This document shows, piece after piece, positions 30,262 through 33,747 of a stretch of DNA of 64,000 nt (positions are counted from its first letter, which is position 1; every line of letters begins with the position of its first letter). Where the stretch lies: positions 4,712,001-4,776,000 of the forward strand of contig NZ_CP150241.1 in NCBI RefSeq assembly GCF_037975235.1. The letters are read 5' to 3'. A model generated the notes under the pieces. That model ran no database searches, was not told where the DNA came from, and was given only the letters and a program-made list of their open reading frames with translations. The DNA comes from Paenibacillus sp. FSL R5-0341 (lineage in GTDB: Bacteria > Bacillota > Bacilli > Paenibacillales > Paenibacillaceae). The position numbers and the translations under genes were made by a program.

Positions 30262-31749
30262 TTGACTCGCTTAGTTTTACTTATGATTCCAATTCTGATG
30301 CTGTTCGTATCCGGTTGTCAGGATCATAGCCAGTCCATGAAGGCACCAGTTTCTGTTCAAAAGTCTGATCCTCAGGTCATCCATTACATATCCCCTCAAG
30401 GAAACGACTCGAATAAAGGAACCATTCAATCTCCATGGAAAACATTGCAGCACGCTGCCGACCATGCTTCACCAGGAAGCACGATCTATTTGCGTGAAGG
30501 GGTCTATCATCAGAAAGTCAAAATCACCAGGAGCGGTCATTCCTCCAGTAATCCGACCCTATTTTCCAGTTATCCTCAGGAGAAGGTTCTCCTTGATGGT
30601 AAAGATCTATCCGTTCGGGGGATTGAAGGGTTGATTGAAATTGAAAATGCCAGTTATATTACGATTCAGAATCTCGAAATTCGTAACTTCACAACCACAC
30701 TAGGGGGCCAAGTCCCAAGCGGGATCTATGTCCACGGAGCAGGTGAGCACATTCAGCTATTAGGCAACACCATACACGCGATCGCTAGTTACGCATCTCC
30801 TGAAGGTCCCGATTTGCGGGGCAGGGATGCCCACGGTATTGCCATTTATGGCACAGAGCACCCTCAAGCATTACGCGATATCATCATCAAGGATAATGAA
30901 TTGTATGATCTGACACTTGGTTCAAGTGAATCACTTGCAGTCAACGGTAATGTTGATACGTTTGCCATACAGAACAATATCATCCATGATTCCGACAACA
31001 TTGGTATTGATCTGATCGGGTACGAAGGTACGTCCGAGGACGATACGTACGATCAGGCTCGGAACGGTGTTGTACGAGGCAACGAAGTATACGATATTAC
31101 ATCCAATAACAACCCATCCTACGGTACAGACCTGCCCAATGATACCAACTCGGCGGGCGGCATCTATGTAGATGGCGGGAAAGATCATATCATTGACCAA
31201 AACCGGGTGTATCGGAGCGATATCGGAATTGAGATTGCCTCAGAGCATGCTGGACGTTCGACAAGCAACATTACCGTGCGGGATAACCTGATTTATTCCA
31301 ACCGACTGACTGGCATTGCCATGGGTGGATATGACGAAGAACGGGGAGCTACCGAGGATAGCAAAATTATGTACAATACGCTTGTTGGGAATGATACGCT
31401 GAATGCAGGCAATGGACAGTTATTCATGCAATCACGGACGAAGAACAATACGTTCATGCGTAACATTCTCGTATCGGGCAGCTCGGAAGTACTGATATAC
31501 AATGAATATACTAGCAATACCGACAATGTGTTTGACCATAATGTCTATTACTCACCAGGAGAGCAGCAAGATGCCCTGTGGGTTTGGAAAAATAAAGCCT
31601 ACTCCGGCATCGCCGCCTACATTAAGGGATCTGGCAACGATGCACACTCTCTATATGTGAACCCGGCATTTACGGATGAGTCCAACGAAGATTTCCGTCT
31701 CCAGGCGAATTCTCCGGCGAAGGCGTATGGTTACCTTGCCCCACGGTAA
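30262..31749 (+). CDS. Secreted right-handed beta-helix lipoprotein
   Basis: A 495-residue lipoprotein starting at TTG 30262 behind AAGGGGGAA. The lipobox is VSGC with Cys19. The N-terminal part carries the DUF1565-like segment YISPQGNDSNKGT, then SPWKTLQHAADHASPGSTIYLREGVYHQ, typical of parallel beta-helix carbohydrate-active proteins. The middle (about 110-440) is a ladder of short repeats ending in Asn (ITIQNLEIRN, IQLLGNTI, IIIKDNELYD, FAIQNNIIHDSD, ITVRDNLIYSN, NTLVGND). It may be a polysaccharide lyase or glycosidase of the PL/GH28-like fold acting at the cell surface. The catalytic residues and substrate are not identifiable. Ends at a strong terminator. Confidence 0.88.
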   Translation: MTRLVLLMIPILMLFVSGCQDHSQSMKAPVSVQKSDPQVIHYISPQGNDSNKGTIQSPWKTLQHAADHASPGSTIYLREGVYHQKVKITRSGHSSSNPTLFSSYPQEKVLLDGKDLSVRGIEGLIEIENASYITIQNLEIRNFTTTLGGQVPSGIYVHGAGEHIQLLGNTIHAIASYASPEGPDLRGRDAHGIAIYGTEHPQALRDIIIKDNELYDLTLGSSESLAVNGNVDTFAIQNNIIHDSDNIGIDLIGYEGTSEDDTYDQARNGVVRGNEVYDITSNNNPSYGTDLPNDTNSAGGIYVDGGKDHIIDQNRVYRSDIGIEIASEHAGRSTSNITVRDNLIYSNRLTGIAMGGYDEERGATEDSKIMYNTLVGNDTLNAGNGQLFMQSRTKNNTFMRNILVSGSSEVLIYNEYTSNTDNVFDHNVYYSPGEQQDALWVWKNKAYSGIAAYIKGSGNDAHSLYVNPAFTDESNEDFRLQANSPAKAYGYLAPR

Positions 31750-31932: not shown

Positions 31933-32916
31933 TTAACTTCTTACCATCTGTGCTGCATGTGTCACCCGGTTTCGTCCTCCAGTTTTGGAGGCGTACAGGG
32001 CGTTGTCCGCTTTTTGGAACAAGGACTTTTCCGTATCTTCCTCGACCACAGTGGCCGCCCCGATACTCACAGTAATGTTATATTCACCCCAGTCGGCTGA
32101 AGCAACCTGTGAACGATATCGTTCTGCGATACCGATCGCCTGCTCCTCTTCACAATCTGGAAGAATGATAACAAATTCCTCTCCACCGTAACGCGCCACC
32201 ACATCCGTACTACGCGAGACCGATTGTAGCAGTCCCGCCAAATTTCCGAGCACCAGATCTCCGATCGGATGTCCGTAGGTATCATTAATGCTTTTAAAAT
32301 GATCAATATCCACTACCAGAAGAGAGAAATAACGTTGTTTCTCCTGGAACAACAGCAAGCTTTCAACCATTTTTTCCTGGAAAAATCTGCGGTTCTTCAG
32401 TCCTGTCAGCAAGTCTGTGGAGGCCAGCGTTTCCAACTGATCATTCACTTTGATAAGGGCCTGCTCTTTGATCTTATATTCCTCGTGTAATCGTTCAAGC
32501 TCCTTGTTTGCTTCTTGGGTCGCCTGATACAGCTCCTGCAGCTTCGTTTTGGTATGCAAAATATCCTTCTCATGTTCGATTCGCTTACGCATGACTACAA
32601 CAACACAATCGACCACGCTTTCCCCGTTACGGGTCTGTCGAACACCGTTAAGCAGCACGGGAACAGGCTGCTGATCACGAGTACGAAACGTGAAGTACAT
32701 CTCGTCCACATGTCCATATAACTGGATGTAGGGATAGAAATACGTATGGAAAAACACCTTATTGCTCACCGACATGGTGGACTCAATGTGTTGCCCCACA
32801 AGCTCATCGCGCTCATATCCAAGCATCGTAAGCAAAGTTTGATTAATCGATTGTACGATGCCCGAATCCGAGATAGAGAAATATCCACAGGGAGCCAGAT
32901 CTAATTGTATATCCAT
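31933..32916 (-). CDS. RsbP-like PAS domain fused to a GGDEF diguanylate cyclase
   Basis: A 327-residue soluble protein. Residues 4-110 form a PAS domain whose beginning (MDIQL-x2-APCG) and end (DCVVVVMRKR) recall the PAS of B. subtilis RsbP. Residues 112-162 form a coiled coil. Residues 165-322 are a GGDEF domain with the active-site signature GGEEF (244-248) and an inhibitory-site RSTD (235-238) five residues before it, so it should make c-di-GMP and be feedback-inhibited. It lies 24 bp downstream of the RsbQ-like gene, as rsbP lies after rsbQ in B. subtilis. There the output is a PP2C phosphatase; here it is a cyclase. Confidence 0.93.
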   Translation of the reverse strand: MDIQLDLAPCGYFSISDSGIVQSINQTLLTMLGYERDELVGQHIESTMSVSNKVFFHTYFYPYIQLYGHVDEMYFTFRTRDQQPVPVLLNGVRQTRNGESVVDCVVVVMRKRIEHEKDILHTKTKLQELYQATQEANKELERLHEEYKIKEQALIKVNDQLETLASTDLLTGLKNRRFFQEKMVESLLLFQEKQRYFSLLVVDIDHFKSINDTYGHPIGDLVLGNLAGLLQSVSRSTDVVARYGGEEFVIILPDCEEEQAIGIAERYRSQVASADWGEYNITVSIGAATVVEEDTEKSLFQKADNALYASKTGGRNRVTHAAQMVRS

Positions 32917-32940
32917 GGAATAACGCCTTTCTACCGAGTT

Positions 32941-33747
32941 TTATGCGCTCGTCAAATAATCCTTAATCATGCGGATCGTTTCTTCCGGTTGACTTAGATG
33001 CGGATAATGTCCCTTGGCCGTCATCTGTTGCAACCTGCTGTTCTTGAGATGAGCGTGCAAGTAATCCCCTACTTCAACCGGAGCAATGCTGTCTTCGGAA
33101 CACTGAAGAATCAGCGTTGGCACTGTTGCCTGATTCAGATCAATACGGCAGTCAGATAAAAACGTCACTTCGGCAAATTGTCTCGCAATATGCGGATCTC
33201 TGGAGCAGAAGCTTTTCTCCAACTCTTCCGTCAGATCTTTCCGTTCCGGATAGTTCATCACAATGGGTGCCAGATAACTCGCCCACCCAATAAAATTCAT
33301 CTGCATCATCTCAAGCAATTCATCGATATCATTCCGATCAAAACCTCCATAATAATTCGGAAGATCATTCACGTAACGTGGGGACGGCCCCAACATGACG
33401 ATTTGTTTGAAATATTTGGGGTTCTGAATCGATGCCAGCATGCCAATCATGCTGCTGACGGAATGCCCGACAAATATGGTGTCCTGTAGTTCAAGTACTT
33501 CCATAATTTCCAGCACATCTTGGGCGTATCCTTGGAGGTTGCTATATTTGCCAGCATCGTAATAGTTAATTTGAGATTCACCAGATCCAACATAATCAAA
33601 CAAAATTACACGGTAGTTCTCCGTAAAACTTGGAACAATGTAACGCCACATATCCTGATCGCATCCAAAACCATGTGCAAATACAATCGTTTGGCTACCT
33701 GAACCAAGCACTTTAACATTATTTCTTACAAGCACATCTATCGTCAT
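32941..33747 (-). CDS. rsbQ: RsbQ-like alpha/beta hydrolase
   Basis: A 268-residue alpha/beta hydrolase. The catalytic triad is Ser96 (GHSVSS), Asp219 (SEDSIAP) and His247 (KGHYPH), the same numbering as in B. subtilis RsbQ. Other family marks are FAHGFGCDQDMW and the FDYVGSGES oxyanion/loop segments. RsbQ is related to plant KAI2/D14 receptors and binds a hydrophobic ligand in its pocket; in B. subtilis it activates the PAS phosphatase RsbP during energy stress. The next gene supplies an RsbP-like PAS domain attached to a diguanylate cyclase, so this hydrolase probably controls that protein. GAGAGGTGATAT precedes the ATG. No SigB cluster is seen here. Confidence 0.92.
   Translation of the reverse strand: MTIDVLVRNNVKVLGSGSQTIVFAHGFGCDQDMWRYIVPSFTENYRVILFDYVGSGESQINYYDAGKYSNLQGYAQDVLEIMEVLELQDTIFVGHSVSSMIGMLASIQNPKYFKQIVMLGPSPRYVNDLPNYYGGFDRNDIDELLEMMQMNFIGWASYLAPIVMNYPERKDLTEELEKSFCSRDPHIARQFAEVTFLSDCRIDLNQATVPTLILQCSEDSIAPVEVGDYLHAHLKNSRLQQMTAKGHYPHLSQPEETIRMIKDYLTSA

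Follow-up and report, generated by a model that had tools for sequence, protein, structure and literature searches.

The window analysed here is a 64,000-nucleotide stretch of the Paenibacillus sp. FSL R5-0341 genome (6.57 Mb, one contig), and it harbors on its reverse strand a gene for an alpha/beta hydrolase, followed 24 bp downstream on the same strand by a gene for a 327-aa PAS-GGDEF protein (Table 1). The original prediction had described a hydrolase with the triad Ser96/Asp219/His247, a gap of 24 bp, and then a PAS, linker and GGEEF protein with an RxxD site, and our annotation confirmed this arrangement. Pfam assigned Abhydrolase_1 (1.5e-18) to the hydrolase, and PAS_9 (3e-08), PAS (6.3e-08) and GGDEF (1.4e-44) to its partner, all above cut-offs. 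The cyclase motif string reads RSTD-VVARY-GGEEF, with RxxD five residues upstream of GG[DE]EF. The linker (50 residues, aa 113-162) contains no proline or glycine and is hydrophobic at 10 of the 14 heptad a/d positions, a heptad score that was equalled in 30 of 5000 shuffles; we regard it as a probable coiled coil. The AAAGG in the intergenic gap is the probable ribosome-binding site of the cyclase gene. As far as can be read from the letters, the catalytic motifs are intact in both proteins, and the 327-aa protein probably makes c-di-GMP, in a genome with 17 GGDEF and three PilZ matches. The pair is adjoined by a gene for a 495-aa protein (30262-31749), which is also the neighbor in another genome (G001, L299); the other flank differs in that genome, where the window's MFS and TetR genes are missing.

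Table 1. Features of the hydrolase/PAS-cyclase locus, with positions counted in the window
Feature	Position	Strand	Basis
RsbQ-type alpha/beta hydrolase, 268 aa, ATG start	32941..33747	-	ORF, Pfam and PDB search
Hydrolase triad codons Ser96, Asp219, His247	33460-33462, 33091-33093, 33007-33009	-	Read directly
Intergenic gap, 24 bp	32917..32940	-	AAAGG nine bases ahead of the cyclase-gene ATG
PAS-GGDEF protein, 327 aa, ATG start	31933..32916	-	ORF and Pfam
RsbP-class PAS domain, aa 1-115	32572..32916	-	Profile scores, tree, signature residues
Heptad-like linker, aa 116-163, probable coiled coil	32428..32571	-	Heptad test on aa 113-162
GGDEF diguanylate cyclase domain, aa 165-317	31966..32424	-	Pfam/NCBIfam, motif reading
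GGEEF (aa 244-248); I-site RSTD	32173-32187; 32203-32214	-	Read directly

When searched against all PDB sequences, the hydrolase matched B. subtilis RsbQ (1wom) best, with an E-value of 6.4e-105 and 353.6 bits, and an Oleispira homologue second, with 258 bits. From rank 3 onwards the matches listed are mostly KAI2/D14 and related chains (E about 4e-67 to 1.5e-47), which bears out the previously noted kinship of RsbQ with karrikin/strigolactone receptors. The plant KAI2/D14 receptors share a homologous hydrolase with the locus, but they work via F-box proteins and not via PAS domains. The triad is nearly invariant among 170 aligned RsbQ sequences (Ser96 in 170, Asp219 in 169 and His247 in 168), the misses being a gap in L235 and an asparagine in L062. 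The latter is a marine RsbQ adjoining a PAS-GGDEF gene, and with its triad histidine replaced by asparagine it is possibly a catalytically dead sensor. By its PDB matches the hydrolase belongs to the RsbQ class. Alpha/beta hydrolases are mostly metabolic, and the 25 NCBIfam matches shown out of 33 are to esterase/lactonase and similar models, although all fall below their cut-offs; both points would suit a metabolic esterase that lies in one operon with a PAS-cyclase acting on its own, and makes no signalling contact with it. However, RsbQ is by far its best solved match, and further evidence against a metabolic esterase comes from the gene pairing described below.

A profile built from the PAS domains of three Bacillaceae PAS-phosphatases of the RsbP type (L119, L132 and L135) gave the PAS domain of the 327-aa protein 129.0 bits; among 29 other PAS segments in the genome the highest score was 24.6 bits, and the PAS of its 852-aa GGDEF protein reached 19.8 bits. 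The genome has 30 other PAS matches, the weakest of which was left out of the scoring. Against the other profiles the locus PAS scored 140.6 (31 kinase-linked rows), 144.8 (six Bacilli cyclase rows), 75.3 (23 Gram-negative cyclase rows) and 123.3 bits (five free-PAS rows, see below), while none of the 29 other segments exceeded 24.7 bits with any of the six profiles. In a PAS tree based on few alignment columns, in which several of the non-RsbQ-linked domains sit on long branches, 43 RsbQ-linked PAS domains (that of the locus and 42 hand-picked across outputs) were split from 27 other PAS domains of the genome by one branch with 98% SH-aLRT support; two short PAS segments and a second copy of the window PAS (L158) were omitted from this tree. 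The resemblance to the RsbP PAS, suggested earlier from the first and last residues of the domain, is thus borne out by the profile search and the 98% branch, by which the locus PAS belongs to the RsbP-PAS class. The reading of the partner as an ordinary PAS-GGDEF sensor was rejected on the same grounds, 129.0 bits versus at most 24.6 and the 98% branch.

With respect to the published signature (C10, L13, L48, Q53, F55, C56, Y59, E72 and P86, plus P62), the locus PAS is identical at C10, F55, Y59, P62, E72 and P86. The remaining four positions are hydrophobic (F13, M48 and F56) or basic (K53) and fit the consensus classes as given in the available text, the assignment of classes to positions being our own. 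The DIT motif is absent at the end of the domain, where the sequence is CVVVVMRKRIEH, and a PDB search with the domain returned no RsbP PAS structure, the best match having an E-value of 0.011. The 75 cyclase-linked PAS domains (the locus PAS included, as well as L042 from outside the family) carry Y59 in 74 cases, E72 in 75, P86 in 73 and C10 in 65, in counts that leave out L050, L178, L197 and L206 (cyclase frame broken or short), L054 (hydrolase split), L097, L108, L109 and the loci of reversed gene order. Position 55 is F in 55 of them, I in 13 and V in seven; I or V thus occupies in 20 of 75 the position that is linked to RsbQ binding in B. subtilis, which weakens a strict role of F55 and counts against our reading of the pair. 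The same choices of rows carry into the RsbQ tree, the distances of 170 pairs, the coupling analysis and the triad counts, and L097, L108, L109 and the reversed-order loci are absent from the last three as well.

The coupling of RsbQ and an RsbP-type PAS to a diguanylate cyclase is not new, having been in print since 2011, and the locus is a new member of a described group. Nadezhdin, Brody and Price (PMC3183031) described 45 RsbQ/RsbP-PAS pairs whose outputs, in the available text, are PP2C phosphatases, histidine kinases and diguanylate cyclases, the last occurring in Gram-positives as well as Gram-negatives; Paenibacillus is nowhere mentioned in the main text. The locus resembles the cyclase modules in that text in its adjacent genes with the hydrolase first, its most N-terminal PAS, its probably helical linker and its diguanylate cyclase output, and we see no essential difference between them. 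It likewise shares the hydrolase and the PAS class with the RsbQ-RsbP energy branch of SigB in B. subtilis; however, RsbP ends in a PP2C phosphatase whereas the locus protein ends in GGDEF. A 2025 paper (PMC12143880), in its available text, repeats the coupling of RsbQ/PAS to outputs and gives an AlphaFold2 prediction of a complex of two RsbP and two RsbQ chains. The exchange of PP2C and GGDEF outputs on RsbT/RsbU-type sensors in that text is alike in that a partner protein controls a coiled-coil output dimer and outputs are exchangeable, but the partner there is RsbT and at the locus a hydrolase. In the accessible text of PMC8115616 and PMC10950880, the words RsbQ and diguanylate cyclase occur once each. 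Among other literature, subscription papers and preprints aside, none was found that couples RsbQ with a diguanylate cyclase in the title or the start of the abstract; likewise, no literature was found on RsbQ with FapA or with a stand-alone PAS, and none on RsbQ with class III cyclase names among the matches listed.

The pairing of the two genes is conserved in related genomes. The original prediction thereby withstood two of the three checks named as able to refute it, the other being the class of the PAS. Counting by hand in 60 genomes of the genus, which include the source genome and one more of the same species, we found both genes intact in 33, the hydrolase alone in one (G047, where the cyclase frame is broken), the cyclase alone in one (G058, where the hydrolase is in two overlapping pieces) and neither intact in 25, at least two of which (G007 and G055) retain fragments. 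Here a cyclase orthologue was a nearly full-length protein of at least 62% identity (34 genomes), and a hydrolase orthologue an unbroken one of at least 75% identity (34 genomes); in G031 and G041, both among the 34, the cyclase is cut short by a stop near the C-terminus. The co-retention gave a Fisher p of 1.3e-14, in a test that ignores shared ancestry and the linkage of neighboring genes. Decayed copies of the pair also occur (L049, L050, L051 and L054), with the cyclase frame broken or the hydrolase lost or split. Over 170 pairs, the RsbQ and PAS distances correlated with r = 0.86, against a maximum of 0.14 in 500 permutations, both without correction for gene linkage or for shared ancestry, which contributes to the correlation.

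A survey of RsbQ homologues by output domain, proposed with the original prediction, extends this pairing to other bacteria. Scanning with an alignment of RsbQ sequences headed by the Oleispira protein gave at least 578 relatives, and in the best 80 of them, a set that leans towards relatives of the Oleispira protein, an RsbP-class PAS gene adjoins RsbQ at 78 loci. The outputs of these 78, called with home-made profiles on stop-to-stop frames, are histidine kinase (34), GGDEF (29), GGDEF plus EAL (six), PP2C (four), class III cyclase (one) and none (four: L118, L131, L091 and L129, the last two possibly broken or cut frames); Pfam agreed with the calls for all 21 proteins scanned from this set. 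The two unpaired loci are L088, which lies at a contig end, and L090, which is without a PAS. The PAS gene lies ahead of RsbQ at five of the six GGDEF plus EAL loci, and such PAS-GGDEF-EAL genes before RsbQ were seen in Vreelandella, Halomonas and Marinobacter (L063, L064, L069, L071 and L072; Pfam run on L063 only). The class III output is an RsbP-class PAS of the cyanobacterium Planktothrix fused to an adenylate/guanylate cyclase adjoining RsbQ (L106:2371-4310); this single locus differs from the three output types in the available text of PMC3183031. Both the adjacency of an RsbP-class PAS at 78 of the best 80 RsbQ loci, whatever the output, and the co-variation of the RsbQ and PAS distances argue against a metabolic esterase without signalling contact, which we consider improbable.

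Within the family, RsbQ was detected at an E-value of 1e-70 or better in 118 of 295 genomes. We classified 97 of these RsbQ loci and 16 others with home-made profiles, and the frame of the PAS in the resulting 113 loci carries GGDEF in 76 (including L178, a short broken frame), a histidine kinase in two, no output in 35 and PP2C in none; one of the 113 (L042) comes from another family, and since many orthologues of the locus pair in the genus are not part of this count, the shares should not be taken as population frequencies. The result bears on whether the module acts on SigB, as its B. subtilis counterpart does, with c-di-GMP as a side product, as might be thought from the RsbQ homology of the hydrolase and from a sigma-factor gene in the genome that adjoins an RsbW-like gene (L295). 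However, the PAS partner is without a PP2C (SpoIIE) domain by Pfam, none of the 113 PAS frames has one by a three-sequence profile, and the PP2C gene in the sigma locus encodes a 389-aa REC-PP2C protein without a PAS. In addition, the 64-kb window holds two matches to a SigB-like promoter pattern, against 4.3 expected by chance, and both lie away from the pair. Because the partner has no PP2C, the sigma/RsbW-like locus has its own REC-PP2C and no SigB-like match lies by the pair, SigB is an unlikely target, and a module feeding SigB with c-di-GMP as a by-product seems highly improbable to us. The candidate role of the pair as a SigB input was rejected for the missing PP2C and the lack of a SigB-like promoter by the pair under this pattern. 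In the available text of PMC9847131, Paenibacillus is assigned an RsbQP module on the basis of orthogroups, as a SigB branch; since no PAS-PP2C partner was found in the 113 loci, these calls may rest on RsbQ and an unrelated PP2C.

Four of the 35 no-output loci (L050, L197, L206 and L227) look like broken cyclases on reading their sequences, and the other 31, all in Paenibacillaceae, encode a free PAS whose length, taken from the first start codon, is 111-224 aa (L043-L048, L118, L131, L238, L239, L241 and L244-L263). In nine of ten pairs of free PAS, some of which share sequences, dN/dS was 0.08-0.27, the tenth being saturated, and by this measure the free PAS in the tested pairs look like real genes. 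Among 32 free PAS, a group that includes L227, judged a frame-broken cyclase, position 59 is Y or H in 30, F55 is kept in 21 and E72 in 22, and by these counts the RsbP-PAS signature is partly relaxed. Outputs cluster in a quick tree of 93 RsbQ sequences (six changes versus 34.6 in shuffles), sampled as about 55% of the cyclase rows of the family at random plus a hand-picked part of the rest. In this tree, 24 free-PAS rows fall in one starred clade (96) and five in another (97), the latter next to cyclase rows from Sporosarcina and PP2C rows from Bacillaceae, and there are two lone rows. The Paenibacillus loci L118 and L131 share one starred clade with loci of the source genus.

In all 29 free-PAS genomes there are as many RsbP-class PAS domains (E 1e-10) as RsbQ matches, which is again at odds with a metabolic esterase. 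At this cutoff, the free PAS is the sole RsbP-class PAS in 19 of the 29, and therefore its output would have to come from a protein that lacks a PAS of this class. For the same reason, a heterodimer of a free PAS and a fused PAS-GGDEF protein was rejected as a general explanation. No common upstream gene was found at 20 free-PAS loci; only two upstream families occur at three or more of them, both from L276, L279 and L281 of one genus. In three genomes of two genera (G472, G525 and G563; L259+L296, L260+L297 and L263+L298), the free PAS gene is followed by a REC-PP2C gene, a gene for 692-708 aa and a STAS-like gene for 103-111 aa, REC-PP2C being assigned by Pfam in all three genomes, and Jag_N, FapA and STAS by Pfam run on G472 only. 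The simplest reading of this operon would be that an RsbQ-RsbP-RsbV-like path has been divided among separate proteins. More broadly, RsbQ-PAS may be a detachable receptor cassette, either fused to a cyclase or, in separate old lineages including the split RsbQ-RsbP-RsbV-like path, present as a free PAS acting in trans, so that one ligand could be read out as c-di-GMP, a cyclic mononucleotide, phosphorylation or partner switching; we put this forward tentatively, with a little under an even chance of being right.

The best overall explanation of the locus, which we hold to be very likely, is an RsbQ/RsbP-PAS bipartite sensing module with a diguanylate cyclase output. The original prediction of such a sensor pair wired to a cyclase is supported by the class membership of both proteins and by their conserved pairing, and the available text of PMC3183031 had published the same coupling in 2011. 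In B. subtilis, according to that text, RsbQ contacts the PAS directly, the F55A substitution blocks RsbQ binding and signalling, and signalling needs the RsbQ triad. In the mechanism that we favor for our locus, the hydrolase would bind, and perhaps hydrolyse, a small hydrophobic metabolite, and in its bound or loaded state it would dock on the PAS near the F-alpha helix (F55, Y59). Docking would alter the geometry of the PAS dimer, and the coiled coil would relay this change to the paired GGDEF domains, switching c-di-GMP synthesis, with the RSTD I-site possibly giving product inhibition. We infer the contact between the hydrolase and the PAS, the direction of control, the activity of the cyclase and an effect on motility or biofilm formation, the contact and the need for the triad being carried over from the B. 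subtilis work. A direct-coupling analysis of the two proteins, noise-limited at an Neff of 119, showed no clear interface between them and did not resolve contacts, the best inter-protein score being 1.36, little below the best ones within the hydrolase (2.74 and then at most 1.46).

Which half of the module senses is a separate matter that leaves the module itself unaffected. In Model 1 of PMC3183031, the hydrolase product is delivered to the PAS, which would be the sensor, with its cofactor or ligand made or loaded by the hydrolase; in Model 2, the ligand-bound hydrolase is the sensor. Model 1 has been proposed in the available text of that paper, and the sequences fit both models alike, but no RsbP cofactor was found there and none is indicated by the sequence here, so we regard a sensing PAS as possible but on the doubtful side.

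If the RsbQ/RsbP-PAS module does drive the cyclase, its output would be easily readable by c-di-GMP reporters, which would permit a hunt for the ligand without the SigB network. If the reading as a detachable cassette is true, the proteins with a free PAS would offer the sensor on its own. For Paenibacillus, the finding that RsbQ never adjoins a PAS-PP2C fusion in the 113 loci suggests caution over RsbQP as a branch of the SigB pathway.
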